Positions 5,089-9,930 of a stretch of 64,000 bases of DNA are shown piece after piece (the stretch's first letter is position 1; each line of letters begins with the position of its first letter). The DNA comes from Asterias amurensis (lineage: Eukaryota > Echinodermata > Asteroidea > Forcipulatida > Asteriidae), in the NCBI RefSeq assembly GCF_032118995.1, contig NC_092659.1:14564177-14628176 (forward strand), written 5' to 3'. The notes under the pieces are model-generated. The model was not told the DNA's origin, searched no databases, and worked only from the letters and a program-made list of their open reading frames with translations. A program made the position numbers and the translations under genes.

Positions 5089-5187
5089 ATGAAGTGTCGA
5101 AGTTGTGGCGTTCAGAAACTGTCAAATGAGTTCCCGCCATGGACCATTATGGAAGAATGTAGACATGCTCCTCTCCATTGCCTTAGG
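5089..5187 (+). CDS. RING-Ubl-TerD protein, exon 1 (RING-like, first half)
   Basis: ATG in good context (AAAATGA, A at -3), 33 codons, donor GTAAGT at 5188. It contributes zinc ligands C3-x2-C6, then C24-x-H26 and H30-C31. The chosen ATG follows an in-frame stop 21 bases upstream. It is joined to exon 2 because only that gives the remaining ligands in frame. Confidence 0.7.
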
Positions 5188-5655
5188 GTAAGTGTGTTAT
5201 ATATAAGTCACATTGATGTGTTACATTGTTTTAATATATGACAATGAACATTCCAGCGCATTTTCTGAAGGCAACTAACCATACAGTTTAATAATAATTA
5301 TATCATGGAGGTTTACGCCTAACACATTTTGTCTCAATTTTTACATAAAATCAAGGAGTAGAAATGAAAAGGGCTATTAAAAACCTTCGTCTTCCTCGAT
5401 GTACTAAAAAACAACCACTCATATAGGTCATGGTTTAAAGGCCATTACAAAATATGAACGCAAGGAATTAAGTGGATTTTTATTTCCATTGAGGCCTTGG
5501 TCGGTTTCAAGACTCTGTCCATATTCAGTGGTTATGAAGCAATCTTACTTAGACCATAATTGACCAGTGGGTTAAACTAATGGATGAAAAGTACGTGGGT
5601 TCAGAGAACTGTTAATGGGTTTTCATGTGATTTGCTATAAAGTGGAACTTCTTAT

Positions 5656-6586
5656 TAGGCAGTGGACACTATTGGTAATTACTCAAAATAATTATTAGCA
5701 TAAAACCTTTCTTGGTGACGAGTAATGGGGAGAGGTTGATGGTATAAAACATTGTGAGAAACAGCTCCCTCTGAAGTGCCATAGTTTTCGAGAGAAAGAA
5801 GTAATTTTCCATGAATTTGATTTCGAGACCTCAGATTACGAACTTGAGGTCTCGAAATCAACCATCTAAACGCACACAACTTCGTGTGACAAGGGTGTTT
5901 TTTCTTTCATCATTATCTCGCAAGTTCGATAACCGATTGAGCTCAAATTTTCACAGGTTTGTTATTTTATGCTTATGTTGAGATACAGCAACTGTGAAGG
6001 CTAGTCTTTGACAGTATACAAATATTGACTGCTTCGAGTGCTATGGTTAAAACTATGACTCCTGAGGTGATCCCCGGAGCGTTCTATTTTCCCGAGGCGA
6101 AGCCGAGGGAAAATAGAACGCTCCGGGGATCACCGAGGGAGTCATAGTTTTTAACCATTGCACGAGTAAAAGCAGTCAATATTTGTTTTATAACACCCCA
6201 AACATTTCTAAATACTGTACTATTATTATTAAGTTACAGACCTGAATGCTACAATCCACGGACAACGCGAACACAGATTGCAAACACTTTTACTTACTGT
6301 GTTGCATGTAGTGTCGTGCAATCCGAAATGGTTACAGACTATTAATTTATCATCCTCGTACACGCAACGGACGTCTGGGTACTGCACGTCGTGTGCTAGT
6401 CTGTCGGACTAGCGCACGGCGCCATGTGCTAGTCTTCGGACTAGCGCATGATGGCAAACCGACGCACTATCACACGGCCGTCGTCTAGCAAAACTAAGAC
6501 ATGTCATGTGACGCGCTCTAAACCAATGAGCAGGCAGAATACTTGCAAGGGGTGTTATAATTACCAATAGTGTCCACTGTCTTTAA
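5656..6586 (+). mobile_element. MITE family A, copy 4, split by a nested element
   Basis: Family A sequence runs from GGCAGTGGACACTATTGG at 5658 to CTAGTCTTTGACA near 6007. It resumes at ATTACCAATAGTGTCCACTG near 6562 and ends with TTAA at about 6583. The roughly 550 bp between are a younger insertion containing a long palindrome. It lies in intron 1 of the TerD-domain gene. Confidence 0.75.
6013..6186. repeat. Near-perfect palindrome with GAGGCGAAGCCGAG centre
   Basis: ACAAATATTGACTGCTT at the left pairs with AAGCAGTCAATATTTGT at the right, and the arms meet at the symmetric CGAGGCGAAGCCGAG core. The arms are about 80 bp with few mismatches. Flanking TATAACACCCC motifs (6187 onward, and inverted at about 6550) mark the larger nested element. 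A diverged relative with the same centre lies at 22935-23055. Confidence 0.8.
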
Positions 6587-6589
6587 GGC

Positions 6590-7005
6590 AGGATTTACGG
6601 CTTCATATATTATTATTAGCATTTGCTACAAAGTAACAACAAACAATTTTCCTAAACTTTCTTGTTATGCAGGATACTTTTTTTGTAAATGTAAATTTTT
6701 TCCCAACACATATGCAGTGAAAATCTGGCCTCAATTGGTCGTCGTTGTTGCATTTACAAGAAAACAATGAGATAAAAAACACACTTATCATGTGTGCTTT
6801 CAGATGTACGAGTGAGAAAGGCTTCTTGACTGAAGCCGTTTCTCAAATTTTAGGGTGACAGTTAACTCTTTGTCTAAAACTAATTTTGAGTCGTTTCTCA
6901 CAATGTTTAATACTACCAACAGCTCATTGCAAAGTAAAGTTGTTATGGTCACTTTAATTTGTTGAGTAATTATAATATCAACAGAATATGAACTGCCTTT
7001 TATTT
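6590..7005 (-). mobile_element. Divergent MITE family A relative
   Basis: Scattered family A motifs occur in minus orientation: CTCAATTGGTCGTCG, CACACTTATCATGTGTG, GCCGTTTCTCA and TTTCTCACAATGTTTAATAC. The ends are not definable. It fills the rest of intron 1 up to exon 2. Confidence 0.4.
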
Positions 7006-7054
7006 ACTAAGTATAGTGTATATATTTCATTGTTGTCCTGATTGTTCTTTGCAG

Positions 7055-7378: not shown

Positions 7379-7652
7379 GTAGGTGCATGAATGCACAACT
7401 GTGTGGTTGTATACAAATAGTGTGATTAAACTAAAAATTGTCGTATAAGTAGAAAGTAACTGGGCACCCACACTTTTTCACCAGTGACTATAAAAGTATT
7501 ATATTTTATTCAGGTAAAGATTTTGGTCATAACAGTGTAAAATGGGTGTCGAATAAAATGTTTTATCCGAATCTTTTTATAACAACCTATTCATCCCTTT
7601 CTTTTTATGTCCTAATCAGGTGGTTCAAAACACTTTAATATTGTAAGCTTTT

Positions 7653-8393
7653 ATATTATTATTATTATTATTATCCTTATCCTTATCCTTATCCTTATCC
7701 TTATCCTTATCCTTATCCTTATCCTTATCCTTATCCTTATCCTTATCCTTATCCTTATCCTTATCCTTATCCTTATCCTTATCCTTATCCTTATCCTTAT
7801 CCTTATCCTTATCCTTATCCTTATCCTTATCCTTATCCTTATCCTTATCCTTATCCTTATCCTTATCCTTATCCTTATCCTTATCCTTATCCTTATCCTT
7901 ATCCTTATCCTTATCCTTATCCTTATCCTTATCCTTATCCTTATCCTTATCCTTATCCTTTTCCTTATCATTATCATTATCATTATCATTATCATTATCA
8001 TTATCATTATCATTATCATTATCATTATCATTATCATTATCATTATCATTATCATTATCATTATCATTATCATTATCATTATCATTATCATTATCATTAT
8101 CATTATCATTATCATTATCATTATCATTATCATTATCATTATCATTATCATTATCATTATCATTATCATTATCATTATCATTATCATTATCATTATCATT
8201 ATCATTATCATTATCATTATCATTATCATTATCATTATCATTATCATTATCATTATCATTATCATTATCATTATCATTATCATTATCATTATCATTATTA
8301 TTATTATTATTATTATTATTATTATTATTATTATTATTATTATTATTATTATTATTATTATTATTATTATCATTATTATTATCATTATTATTA
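7653..8393. repeat. Compound microsatellite: (CCTTAT)n, (CATTAT)n, (ATT)n
   Basis: A short ATT run to about 7672 is followed by roughly 48 CCTTAT hexamers to 7967, then about 55 CATTAT hexamers to 8296, then about 30 ATT trimers with two CATT interruptions. The hexamers differ at one base and switch cleanly. It lies in intron 2 of the TerD-domain gene. Long minus-strand open frames here (Met-Ile and Arg-Ile repeats) only reflect the repeat. Confidence 0.95.
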
Positions 8394-8399
8394 GCTGCT

Positions 8400-8880
8400 C
8401 AGGACTGGGTGTCCCTTAGCCTCCTTTGAAAACAGTCCCCGTTCATGTCTATTTCTAACTAAATGCTCTGCCTCATGAAGTAGAATGTTGGCATGCCCAT
8501 CCAGAATTTGCACCTTCCAGAGCAATGGTGGGCGTCCTCGTTGGCGTGGAGTGTTGAAGTCACTGTAGTAGACCAGGTTGGGTAGCCTGGCATTCTGATA
8601 ACATGGCCAAACCAGTCCAGGCGACGTCTGGTCACTACATCTGTTACTGTTGTGTTCATCTTAGAGTTGCCTGCGTATTTCTTGATTTCTCATTTTGTCT
8701 CTTAATGAGACACCTAGTATGGAGCGGAGGCATCTCATCTCAAAGCCTTCCAGTTTTTGTTTGGTGGCTTTTGTGAGAGTCCAGGATTCAGAACCAAGTG
8801 TTGCTATTGGGAGGATGAGCGATATCATGATTGGTTGGTTTCTTCAACTGAGTTTTGACCTGCTATTCAAACTTGGCACA
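8400..8880 (-). mobile_element. LINE reverse-transcriptase C-terminal fragment (decayed)
   Basis: Minus-strand translation shows LGSESWTLTKATKQKLEGFE, then MRCLRSILGVSLRDKMRNQE, and after a frameshift near 8670 TRRRLDWFGHVIRM. These match the conserved tail of endonuclease/reverse-transcriptase non-LTR elements (usual form WFGHVVRM). At least one frameshift and truncation on both sides make it a relic. The sequence at 8880-9230 may be more of the same element but is not recognisable. Confidence 0.7.
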
Positions 8881-9321
8881 CGGCCATTGACTTCCCAGTT
8901 GGGTGAGATGTTACTTTACTACTTCCAAGGGGTTGGGCCACCAGCCGCTTCTTCTAGATGACAGACCCCCATGTGGGTTTCCAACGGTTTTCCTTCCGTT
9001 TCCAGCCTAGGTGTTTTTATTCTGGGGGCATGGAACCCAGTCGTCTCCGTCAATCTGCCTGCTCTTTGGTGAGCAGTTGCCAGGGTGCTCCACTTGGAGG
9101 TAGGGACTAGGCATTTTGTATTGGTAGAGGCATTTTCAGTACCAGAGAAGGGGCTTATGGTGGTAATGCCCTCCTTTTCGCCTTACGGCTAGGCACCCGC
9201 CCGGTCGCACCCCATTGCTTTTAGTTTTAAAATAATTGTTTAGTAAGTTGTCTTATCGTGTTTTGAAAGCATATATTTTTTGTGTTTAGTATTTTTTTTT
9301 TTTTTCATTTTGCATGGACAG

Positions 9322-9930
9322 GAGTTTACTGATGCGAAAGCTGCAGCAACTCTGGGTTATTATCAAGTCCAGCCGACTTCTACCATTCACGTGAGGCGAC
9401 TCCTCTACTCCGCACCTAAAGATCTGGACAAGGTGGTGTTTGACCTTAACTGGGGTTATCCAAGTCGAAGGCGTGATTTTTTAGATGCAAGTGTTTTAAT
9501 TTTTGAGAGACATAAATATGTAGGCGTTCTTGACTACCGGCACACGAGTTTCCCACCAGCCATGCGACATTCGGGAGATCTGATGAATGATAGAAATCGC
9601 ACAGGTCACCATTTTATCAATGTAGATCTCCATAAAATCCCAGCAAACATCACCCACTTCTTCTTCACTCTGAGTGCTTGGAACTCCCCCACAGTGTCCA
9701 GATACCCGAATCCTAGTCTACGGTTTTACAAGCAGTCTGAGCCAGGCAAGATGCTGTGTGAGGACACCATAACCAAACTGAATTACTCTCAGGCCATCGT
9801 TATGGCGTGGATGACCAGACAAGGCGGCCATTGGTGTGTCTTCAGCGCTGGGAAGCCTTCAGCCGGTAACGCGAAAAACTATAAGTGTCTGGTGTCAACA
9901 ATACAAGGCATTATTTCTAATGGAGTGTAG
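9322..9930 (+). CDS. RING-Ubl-TerD protein, exon 3 (Ubl end, TerD domain)
   Basis: Acceptor CATGGACAG ends at 9321; phase 0; stop TAG at 9928-9930. Residues 142-168 finish the Ubl (GYYQVQPTSTIHV resembles ubiquitin's last strand). TerD signatures follow: DLNWG, DFLDASVLIF, then MRHSGDLMNDRNRTG, then INVDLHKIPANITHFFFTLS and a C-terminal strand region with MAWMTRQGGHWCVF. The RHSGD motif (residues 223-227) and the VDL-x2-IP motif are strong. The acidic GDDE found between them in bacterial TerD is replaced here by GHHF, so calcium binding at that site may be lost. Nothing is fused after TerD. Confidence 0.8.
   Translation, partial: EFTDAKAAATLGYYQVQPTSTIHVRRLLYSAPKDLDKVVFDLNWGYPSRRRDFLDASVLIFERHKYVGVLDYRHTSFPPAMRHSGDLMNDRNRTGHHFINVDLHKIPANITHFFFTLSAWNSPTVSRYPNPSLRFYKQSEPGKMLCEDTITKLNYSQAIVMAWMTRQGGHWCVFSAGKPSAGNAKNYKCLVSTIQGIISNGV

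Follow-up and report, generated by a model that had tools for sequence, protein, structure and literature searches.

Gene structure and genomic copies

In the window, that is, the whole 64,000-nucleotide stretch of Asterias amurensis contig NC_092659.1 analyzed here (positions 14,564,177 to 14,628,176, forward strand), three GT-AG exons in phase 0 with lengths of 99, 324, and 609 nt, each divisible by three, join into a reading frame for a 343-aa product, and an in-frame stop at position 5068 lies 21 nt upstream of the ATG (Table 1). The evidence supports a single animal gene that combines a RING-like zinc module, a ubiquitin-like domain (Ubl), and a TerD domain. A preliminary description of this DNA had proposed the three-exon model, which is borne out by the reading frames, the GT..AG borders, the upstream stop, and the same layout in all three genomic copies of the gene. 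The promoter may lie inside the region around exon 1 that aligns with copy B.

Table 1. Coordinates of the TerD gene and its RNF213-like neighbor in the window
Feature	Position	Strand	Description
Upstream region and exon 1	4363..5290	+	Aligns with copy B, 69.8% over 1000 columns
Exon 1	5089..5187	+	Start codon ATG and N-terminal portion of the RING-like zinc module (C3, C6, C24, H26, C31); donor CTTAGG/GTAAGT; counterpart in copies B and C
Exon 2	7055..7378	+	Remaining zinc module (C34, C45, C48), linker, start of the ubiquitin-like domain; A-B dN 0.052, dS 0.22, p 0.0004
Exon 3	9322..9930	+	End of the Ubl, complete TerD domain, stop TAG; supported by Pfam, AlphaFold2, and Foldseek
Codons CAC CAT of H237-H238	9607..9612	+	Occupy the place of the bacterial TerD calcium ligands D88-E89
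RNF213-like giant gene	30116..45117	+	Same strand and duplicated block as the TerD gene; AAA+ part (ORF 32159-39778) tested; ORFs 30116-31894 and 40888-45117 assigned by position

Besides the gene in the window (copy A), the genome carries two further intact copies, B and C, on the same chromosome and with the same three-exon, phase-0 layout, which are 89% and 61% identical to it, respectively. None of the three has lost the Ubl, the TerD domain, or any of the eight zinc ligands, and all three are matched by both Pfam families (ubiquitin and TerD) at E<=1. The comparison of A with B gave a dN of 0.062 versus a dS of 0.221 (Fisher p 5.3e-9; 0.061 and 0.236 by another NG86 routine), while that of A with C gave a dN of 0.30 versus a near-saturated dS of 2.25. 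Judging from these substitution rates, purifying selection acts on the copies. A six-frame genome search with the TerD family reported two places, copy C (38.3 bits) and the window (30.2 bits), with copy B absent from its output. We also considered that copy B might be a pseudogene, given one flagged TGA each in its exon 1 and exon 3 matches; both turned out to be intron sequence just past the splice sites, and the joined reading frame of copy B is intact.

That the gene model is an artefact, with three unrelated exons joined by eye, is scarcely credible. While exon 1 taken alone yields a p of only 0.055 between A and B, three copies, one of them at near-saturated dS, agree in their exons, in phase, in splice borders, and in reading frame, and the Pfam ubiquitin match crosses the join between exons 2 and 3, which the Ubl spans. 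NCBIfam returned nothing for exon 3 and a single weak match, far under its cut-off, for the N-terminal half; PADLOC gave no match.

The TerD domain and its calcium site

Residues 173 to 321 match the TerD family (PF02342; E 1.2e-6) with 28.6 bits, a margin of only 3.3 bits over the curated cut-off of 25.3. An AlphaFold2 model of the TerD exon adopts the TerD fold (pLDDT 81, pTM 0.81), an outcome favored by the 39 bacterial TerD rows in its input. Profile and predicted structure both bear out the TerD domain of the preliminary description. With this model, Foldseek returned six matches at E<=0.001 (TM 0.62-0.66 by query), four of which are named as TerD or a homologue (2kxt, 3ibz, and two rows of 2qz7). 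The remaining two are 2qng, which is titled as of unknown function and is matched by the TerD profile, and 9a6r_B, which we take to be a TerD-family chain. The solved TerD structure 3ibz was found both by profile (E 1.6e-5) and by fold (E 7.6e-9). The domain thus resembles the bacterial TerD family (PF02342; 2kxt, 3ibz, 2qz7) in Pfam match, fold, and the retained W, LDA, H.GD, and late W and G residues, and it shares 21-30% identity with the bacterial and phage sequences that were aligned or listed. It differs in that it sits in a three-domain, intron-bearing gene and has lost D40, N79, D88, and E89.

These losses concern the calcium site. According to an excerpt of PMC8779313, the two Ca2+ sites of Klebsiella TerD involve the side-chain positions D40, D42, D78, N79, D88, and E89; we compared positions 40, 41, 42, 78, 79, and 89 for Ca1 and 29, 82, 84, and 88 for Ca2, taking residue numbers from that excerpt and counting letters on the 2kxt row. 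Only D42 and D78 of the side-chain set are retained: D40 has no counterpart, N79 is replaced by L or V, and D88 and E89 are both replaced by histidine, such that a His-His pair occupies positions 88-89 in all three copies. In comparison, D40 and E89 are present in all 39 bacterial sequences aligned. The loss of most calcium-binding residues makes a role as calcium sensor, which the preliminary description had entertained, unlikely, and from its sequence the protein is probably not a calcium sensor.

The ubiquitin-like domain and the zinc module

The ubiquitin-like domain was confirmed by a match of residues 95 to 165 to PF00240 (E 3.5e-9; 36.8 bits versus a cut-off of 25.4). Like the Ubl domains inside larger proteins such as parkin and UBL4A, the latter being among its solved-structure matches, it combines a Pfam ubiquitin match with retention of ubiquitin L8 and I44, which align with L98 and I134. 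The usual hydrophobic patch is kept only in part, since R166 stands at the V70 position in every one of the three copies and copy C has a tyrosine at the H68 position. In contrast to ubiquitin, the lysine positions K48 and K63 are T138 and P159, and there is no diglycine: an ungapped extension of the alignment places G75-G76 on S171-A172, from where the chain continues into the TerD domain. The lack of a diglycine end suggests that the Ubl is not conjugated.

The zinc module is less easily named. Its eight ligands (C3, C6, C24, H26, C31, C34, C45, and C48), in the order C-x2-C-x17-C-x-H-x4-C-x2-C-x10-C-x2-C, lie exactly where the preliminary description had placed them and are invariant across the three copies; the name RING, however, is unproven. 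The module shares the ligand order of RING-HC fingers such as PCGF5, but it has no Pfam match, and its best match among solved chains, the RING of PCGF5, is not significant (E 0.52). In the RING consensus, two to three residues separate the ligands at the H-C step, whereas the H26-C31 gap comprises four. RING fingers that touch an E2 feature an aliphatic residue between the first two cysteines, a proline in the last CxxC, and an arginine after it; none of these is found in any of the three copies, which hold S/N/K at position 5, S at 46, and D/D/K at 49.

Genomic neighborhood and origin

An RNF213-like E3 gene lies near the TerD gene in both regions, A and B, as a single duplicated block. We rejected this linkage as independent evidence, since the dS of the TerD pair (0.221) is similar to those of the RNF213 pairs (0.225 and 0.203) and all belong to one collinear block. 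No TerD copy was detected near a third RNF213-like gene. As ORF 40888-45117 has no solved-structure match and no RING pattern was found on the plus strand over 25000-46000, the label "RNF213-like" rests on the AAA+ part.

With respect to origin, a scan of a prokaryotic genome collection with two short patterns, taken from the exon-3 proteins of the three copies, returned 62 pattern matches, among which there was no relative; given that such a scan detects close relatives only, this counts against a recent bacterial transfer and not against an old one. A viral origin was rejected on two viral-contig scans, in which likewise only close relatives are detectable: of their 290 and 52 pattern matches, none was a relative. 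Identity to phage rows (8 of 8) and, among the matches listed, to plasmid rows (20 of 2509 records) ranged from 21.6 to 29.9%.

TerD-type domains do occur in other eukaryotes: an excerpt of PMC3814921 lists kinetoplastid proteins with TERD-like domains, and the Dictyostelium proteins CapA and CapB carry, as seen in part of PMC3188802, a TerD domain as the C-terminal half of a eukaryotic protein. The latter differ in that this part of the text describes them as cAMP-binding and mentions neither Ubl nor RING, a distinction by description and not by sequence. In the open literature on TerD, we found no paper with the zinc module-Ubl-TerD architecture.

Proposed function

We give an even chance to the reading that the protein serves the ubiquitin pathway as an adaptor or weak E3 and that its TerD module binds its ligand independently of calcium. 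The protein would be soluble and cytosolic, and its TerD beta-sandwich would bind a protein or other ligand, no longer holding calcium as in bacterial TerD. The Ubl, presumably non-conjugated, could dock on ubiquitin-binding partners (the proteasome, UIM proteins, or another E3), while the zinc module would either dimerize the protein or hold an E2. Taken together, the adaptor or weak E3 would carry ubiquitin machinery to the TerD-bound target, most likely in stress or cell-autonomous defense. The joined frame, both Pfam matches, the TerD structure match, the invariant ligands, purifying selection, L98 and I134 of the Ubl, and the changed calcium positions support this reading, and the presence of an RNF213-like E3 gene within the shared duplicated block weakly fits a ubiquitin setting. 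Against it stand a zinc module without a significant match and without E2-contact residues, the partial Ubl patch, and the derivation of the RNF213 linkage from one ancestral block. The earlier proposal of a bacterial module wired into ubiquitin signaling stands only in part: the architecture fits, but the Ubl carries no terminal diglycine and the zinc module is only a putative E3.

Alternatively, the protein could be a true RING E3 ligase, in which the zinc module would recruit an E2, the TerD domain would pick either a substrate or the surface of a microbe, with the Ubl acting as an autoinhibitory or activating element by analogy with parkin. The invariant RING-order ligands, the PCGF5 RING as top weak match, and a Ubl on the same chain speak for such a ligase; the missing Pfam match, the H26-x4-C31 spacing, and the absent E2-contact residues speak against it, as does the fact that PCGF-type RINGs are weak on their own, and we consider it rather doubtful. 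It is less probable still that the TerD domain has remained a metal sensor, with zinc or another ion replacing calcium at a candidate site formed by the His-His pair, D196, and D227, and with the metal state switching the ubiquitin part. While H237-H238 stand in place of D88-E89 in all three copies, are preserved over a near-saturated dS, and are accompanied by the retained D42 and D78 positions, the loss of D40 and N79 argues against this.

We regard as improbable, to a similar degree, that a domesticated TerD fold serves as a structural domain and the gene encodes a scaffold without a sensing role. The Dictyostelium and kinetoplastid proteins favor a scaffold, as does a radial spoke protein chain that scores with the TerD profile; selection that keeps three copies with all three modules intact argues against it, with which a scaffold nevertheless remains compatible. 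Going beyond the adaptor reading, it is tempting to speculate, as a long shot, that the protein might be a cell-autonomous defense sensor beside an RNF213-like giant E3. Its own TerD domain, having exchanged calcium for a histidine-based way of binding metal or ligand, would recognize microbial or damaged surfaces, and its Ubl and zinc module would pass these on to the neighboring RNF213-type ubiquitin machinery.

The gene directs attention to a side of the sea star's ubiquitin or immune biology on which we found no paper. TerD is a widespread domain of bacterial stress genes whose mechanism is unsettled, and an animal TerD that is fused to ubiquitin-pathway modules and has lost most of the calcium site offers a route to the calcium-independent part of TerD function.

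A conserved three-exon gene with a zinc module, a ubiquitin-like domain, and a TerD domain

The window gene is genuine and conserved, exists in several copies in this animal, and combines its domains in an unusual order. Its introns have GT-AG borders, an in-frame stop lies 21 nt upstream of the ATG, and the joined exons yield an uninterrupted product of 343 amino acids (aa). In this product, the Pfam ubiquitin family was matched at residues 95 to 165 (E value of 3.5e-9) and TerD at residues 173 to 321 (E value of 1.2e-6, 3.3 bits over the cutoff), both over their curated cutoffs; residues 1 to 86 alone gave no Pfam match. 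Since the match of the ubiquitin-like domain (Ubl) spans the exon 2-exon 3 join, this join is backed by homology.

When the 23 contigs (491.5 Mb) of the genome were searched with the whole protein, 9 of the 20 listed matches were exons of three genes, namely the window gene (copy A) and copies B and C on the same chromosome, C12, of which the window covers positions 14564177 to 14628176. The other 11 fell in one polyubiquitin-like frame on C9 (E values of 0.6 to 1.4), and further, more distant copies elsewhere in the genome are possible, as the search scored only the best candidates. All three copies share the layout of three phase-0 exons with no internal stop, match both Pfam families at an E value of ≤1, and are identical in the zinc ligands C3, C6, C24, H26, C31, C34, C45, and C48. 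Between copies A and B, dN is 0.062 and dS is 0.221 (Fisher P = 5.3e-9); exon 1 alone (99 nt) gave a P value of 0.055, above 0.05. Copies A and C differ more (dN, 0.30; dS, 2.25, near saturation). Together, these genomic data argue strongly for a genuine gene family under selection. Thus, the exon structure, the Ubl, and the TerD domain put forward in the preliminary description were borne out.

The RING-like finger proposed alongside them held up in part. Its ligands follow the RING order in all three copies, but the H26-x4-C31 spacing falls outside the usual RING consensus, and the module had no profile match. It also lacks the E2-contact residues expected of active RINGs, and its best match among solved chains, the PCGF5 RING, was not significant (E value of 0.52). 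The label “RING-like” is fair, and an E3 role is putative. When the Ubl was aligned to ubiquitin, L8 and I44 corresponded to L98 and I134, V70 to R166, and K48 and K63 to T138 and P159, with no diglycine in the alignment extended without gaps. We read the domain as a Ubl internal to the protein instead of a tag.

Coordinates of the features (window positions unless marked C12)
Feature	Location	Strand	Remarks
Exon 1	5089-5187	+	Phase 0, length divisible by three
Exon 2	7055-7378	+	Phase 0, length divisible by three
Exon 3	9322-9930	+	Phase 0, length divisible by three
Copy B	C12 8403780-8403682, 8401944-8401621, 8401216-8400608	-	343 aa, 89% identical to copy A
Copy C	C12 8411303-8411205, 8409306-8408986, 8408059-8407451	-	342 aa, 61% identical to copy A
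RNF213-like place 1	30116-45117, perhaps from 26230	+	600-aa AAA+ query
RNF213-like place 2	C12 8350384-8363431	-	600-aa AAA+ query; AAA+ match 8358194-8359993
RNF213-like place 3	C12 14638511-14640310	-	600-aa AAA+ query
Two-exon host gene	about 575-789, 1535-1811	+	No significant Pfam match
Long hexanucleotide arrays	7670-8395		Intron 2; (CCTTAT)n then (CATTAT)n
Putative LINE-type reverse transcriptase tail	8391-8843	-	Intron 2; by reading only
Gag-pol type retroelement	18338-21678	+	Frames read: CCHC, reverse transcriptase, integrase-like parts
Dispersed repeat, direct copies	60-444, 1030-1412, 5657-6027, 11643-11941, 28423-28806
Dispersed repeat, inverted copies	2534-2843, 16087-16475
Hairpin-forming palindrome	6043-6157		Intron 1; arms 6043-6098 and 6102-6157, 47/56 positions paired

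The TerD fold and its calcium site

A profile of the three exon-3 proteins found the solved bacterial TerD structure 3ibz (E value of 1.6e-5). AlphaFold2, supplied with window exon 3 and 39 bacterial sequences (from 80 loci among the matches listed of 546 relatives), gave a model with a pLDDT of 81 and a pTM of 0.81, poor at exon-3 residues 1 to 24 (the Ubl end). Compared with the PDB by Foldseek, this model had six matches at E values up to 0.001 (TM-scores by query length, 0.62 to 0.66; rmsd, 2.8 to 4.5), an outcome favored by the bacterial rows supplied as input. The top row was 9a6r_B, which we take to be a Bacillus TerD-family protein; the titles of 3ibz, 2kxt, and both 2qz7 chains name TerD or a homologue, and 2qng, although titled “unknown function,” was itself a hit for the TerD profile.

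The calcium sites of Klebsiella TerD are given, in an excerpt of PMC8779313, as residues 40, 41, 42, 78, 79, and 89 and residues 29, 82, 84, and 88, which, counted on the 2kxt row, are D40, L41, D42, D78, N79, and E89 and W29, G82, G84, and D88. We compared these positions after aligning window exon 3 to the 39 bacterial sequences, drawn from among the matches listed. L41, D42, D78, and W29 correspond to L195, D196, D227, and W185. D40 (39/39 bacteria) has no counterpart, N79 (37/39, otherwise D) is L228, replaced by V in copy C, and D88 (37/39, otherwise N) and E89 (39/39) are H237 and H238, a histidine pair also found in copies B and C. G82 and G84 (each 39/39) are D231 and N233. One retrieval pattern required TG[ED]G[DE]GDD, so that the bacterial counts at positions 82, 84, 87, and 88 are biased; those at 40, 79, and 89 were not fixed by it. 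One phage TerD from outside the 39-sequence set has GDD and DNE in the two motifs concerned. Given the changes at ligand positions 40, 79, 88, and 89, bacterial-type calcium binding by this domain is unlikely, which speaks against the calcium sensing proposed earlier.

Duplication together with an RNF213-like gene

Downstream of the window gene, on the same strand, lies a giant RNF213-like gene, whose open reading frame at 32159 to 39778 matches RNF213 structures across the AAA+ part (E values of 2e-119 to 6.6e-123). All three genomic places found with the AAA+ query are on C12. Places 1 and 2 lie downstream of TerD genes in identical order and orientation, within an inverted collinear block that spans some 50 kb or more (window 1419 to 52751 versus C12 8420917 to 8339910; dS about 0.22). 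Besides the TerD and RNF213-like genes, this block contains an upstream gene and, farther downstream, unique DNA. The two pairs of duplicates are of about the same age (dS of 0.221 for TerD A-B and of 0.225 and 0.203 for RNF213), so both genes were most likely copied in a single duplication. The linkage is thus real, yet a single event; the whole-protein search detected no TerD copy beside the third RNF213-like gene. As a simple pattern found no RING within window positions 25000 to 46000, the window RNF213-like gene may be a RING-less form or have its RING split by introns. For RNF213, excerpts describe ubiquitylation of LPS (PMC9993606) and action against Chlamydia inclusions (PMC11308195).

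The two-exon host gene had no significant Pfam match, and DNA matches suggest related copies 8 to 10 kb upstream of the window and at C12 8.42 Mb. The dispersed repeat family (about 390 nt, several copies per 100 kb) has one copy in intron 1. Elsewhere in the genome, contig C23 (16,427 bases, of which the first 10,000 were read) looks mitochondrial: it contains long frames under the echinoderm code, and the frames taken to be ND1 and ND2 lie on the strand opposite the presumed COX1, as in sea stars.

Occurrence in eukaryotes and proposed role

Against the TerD profile, PDB 7jrj chain F, named flagellar radial spoke protein 1 and presumably from Chlamydomonas, reached an overall E value of 5.6e-8, made up of two stretches of which neither passed alone (0.1 and 0.028); it is a possible further eukaryotic TerD-like case. 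Eukaryotic TerD is reported in the excerpts for Dictyostelium CapA/CapB (PMC3188802), and kinetoplastid proteins are listed with TerD (PMC3814921). Among the TerD papers listed, none described a RING-Ubl-TerD protein; earlier mention in Ter-system or TerD-NMR papers is possible, and the architecture is probably catalogued in automatic protein databases. The domain content is established; beyond it, we infer that the window protein would most likely act as a ubiquitin-pathway adaptor or weak E3, in which the TerD part may serve as a calcium-independent binding module.
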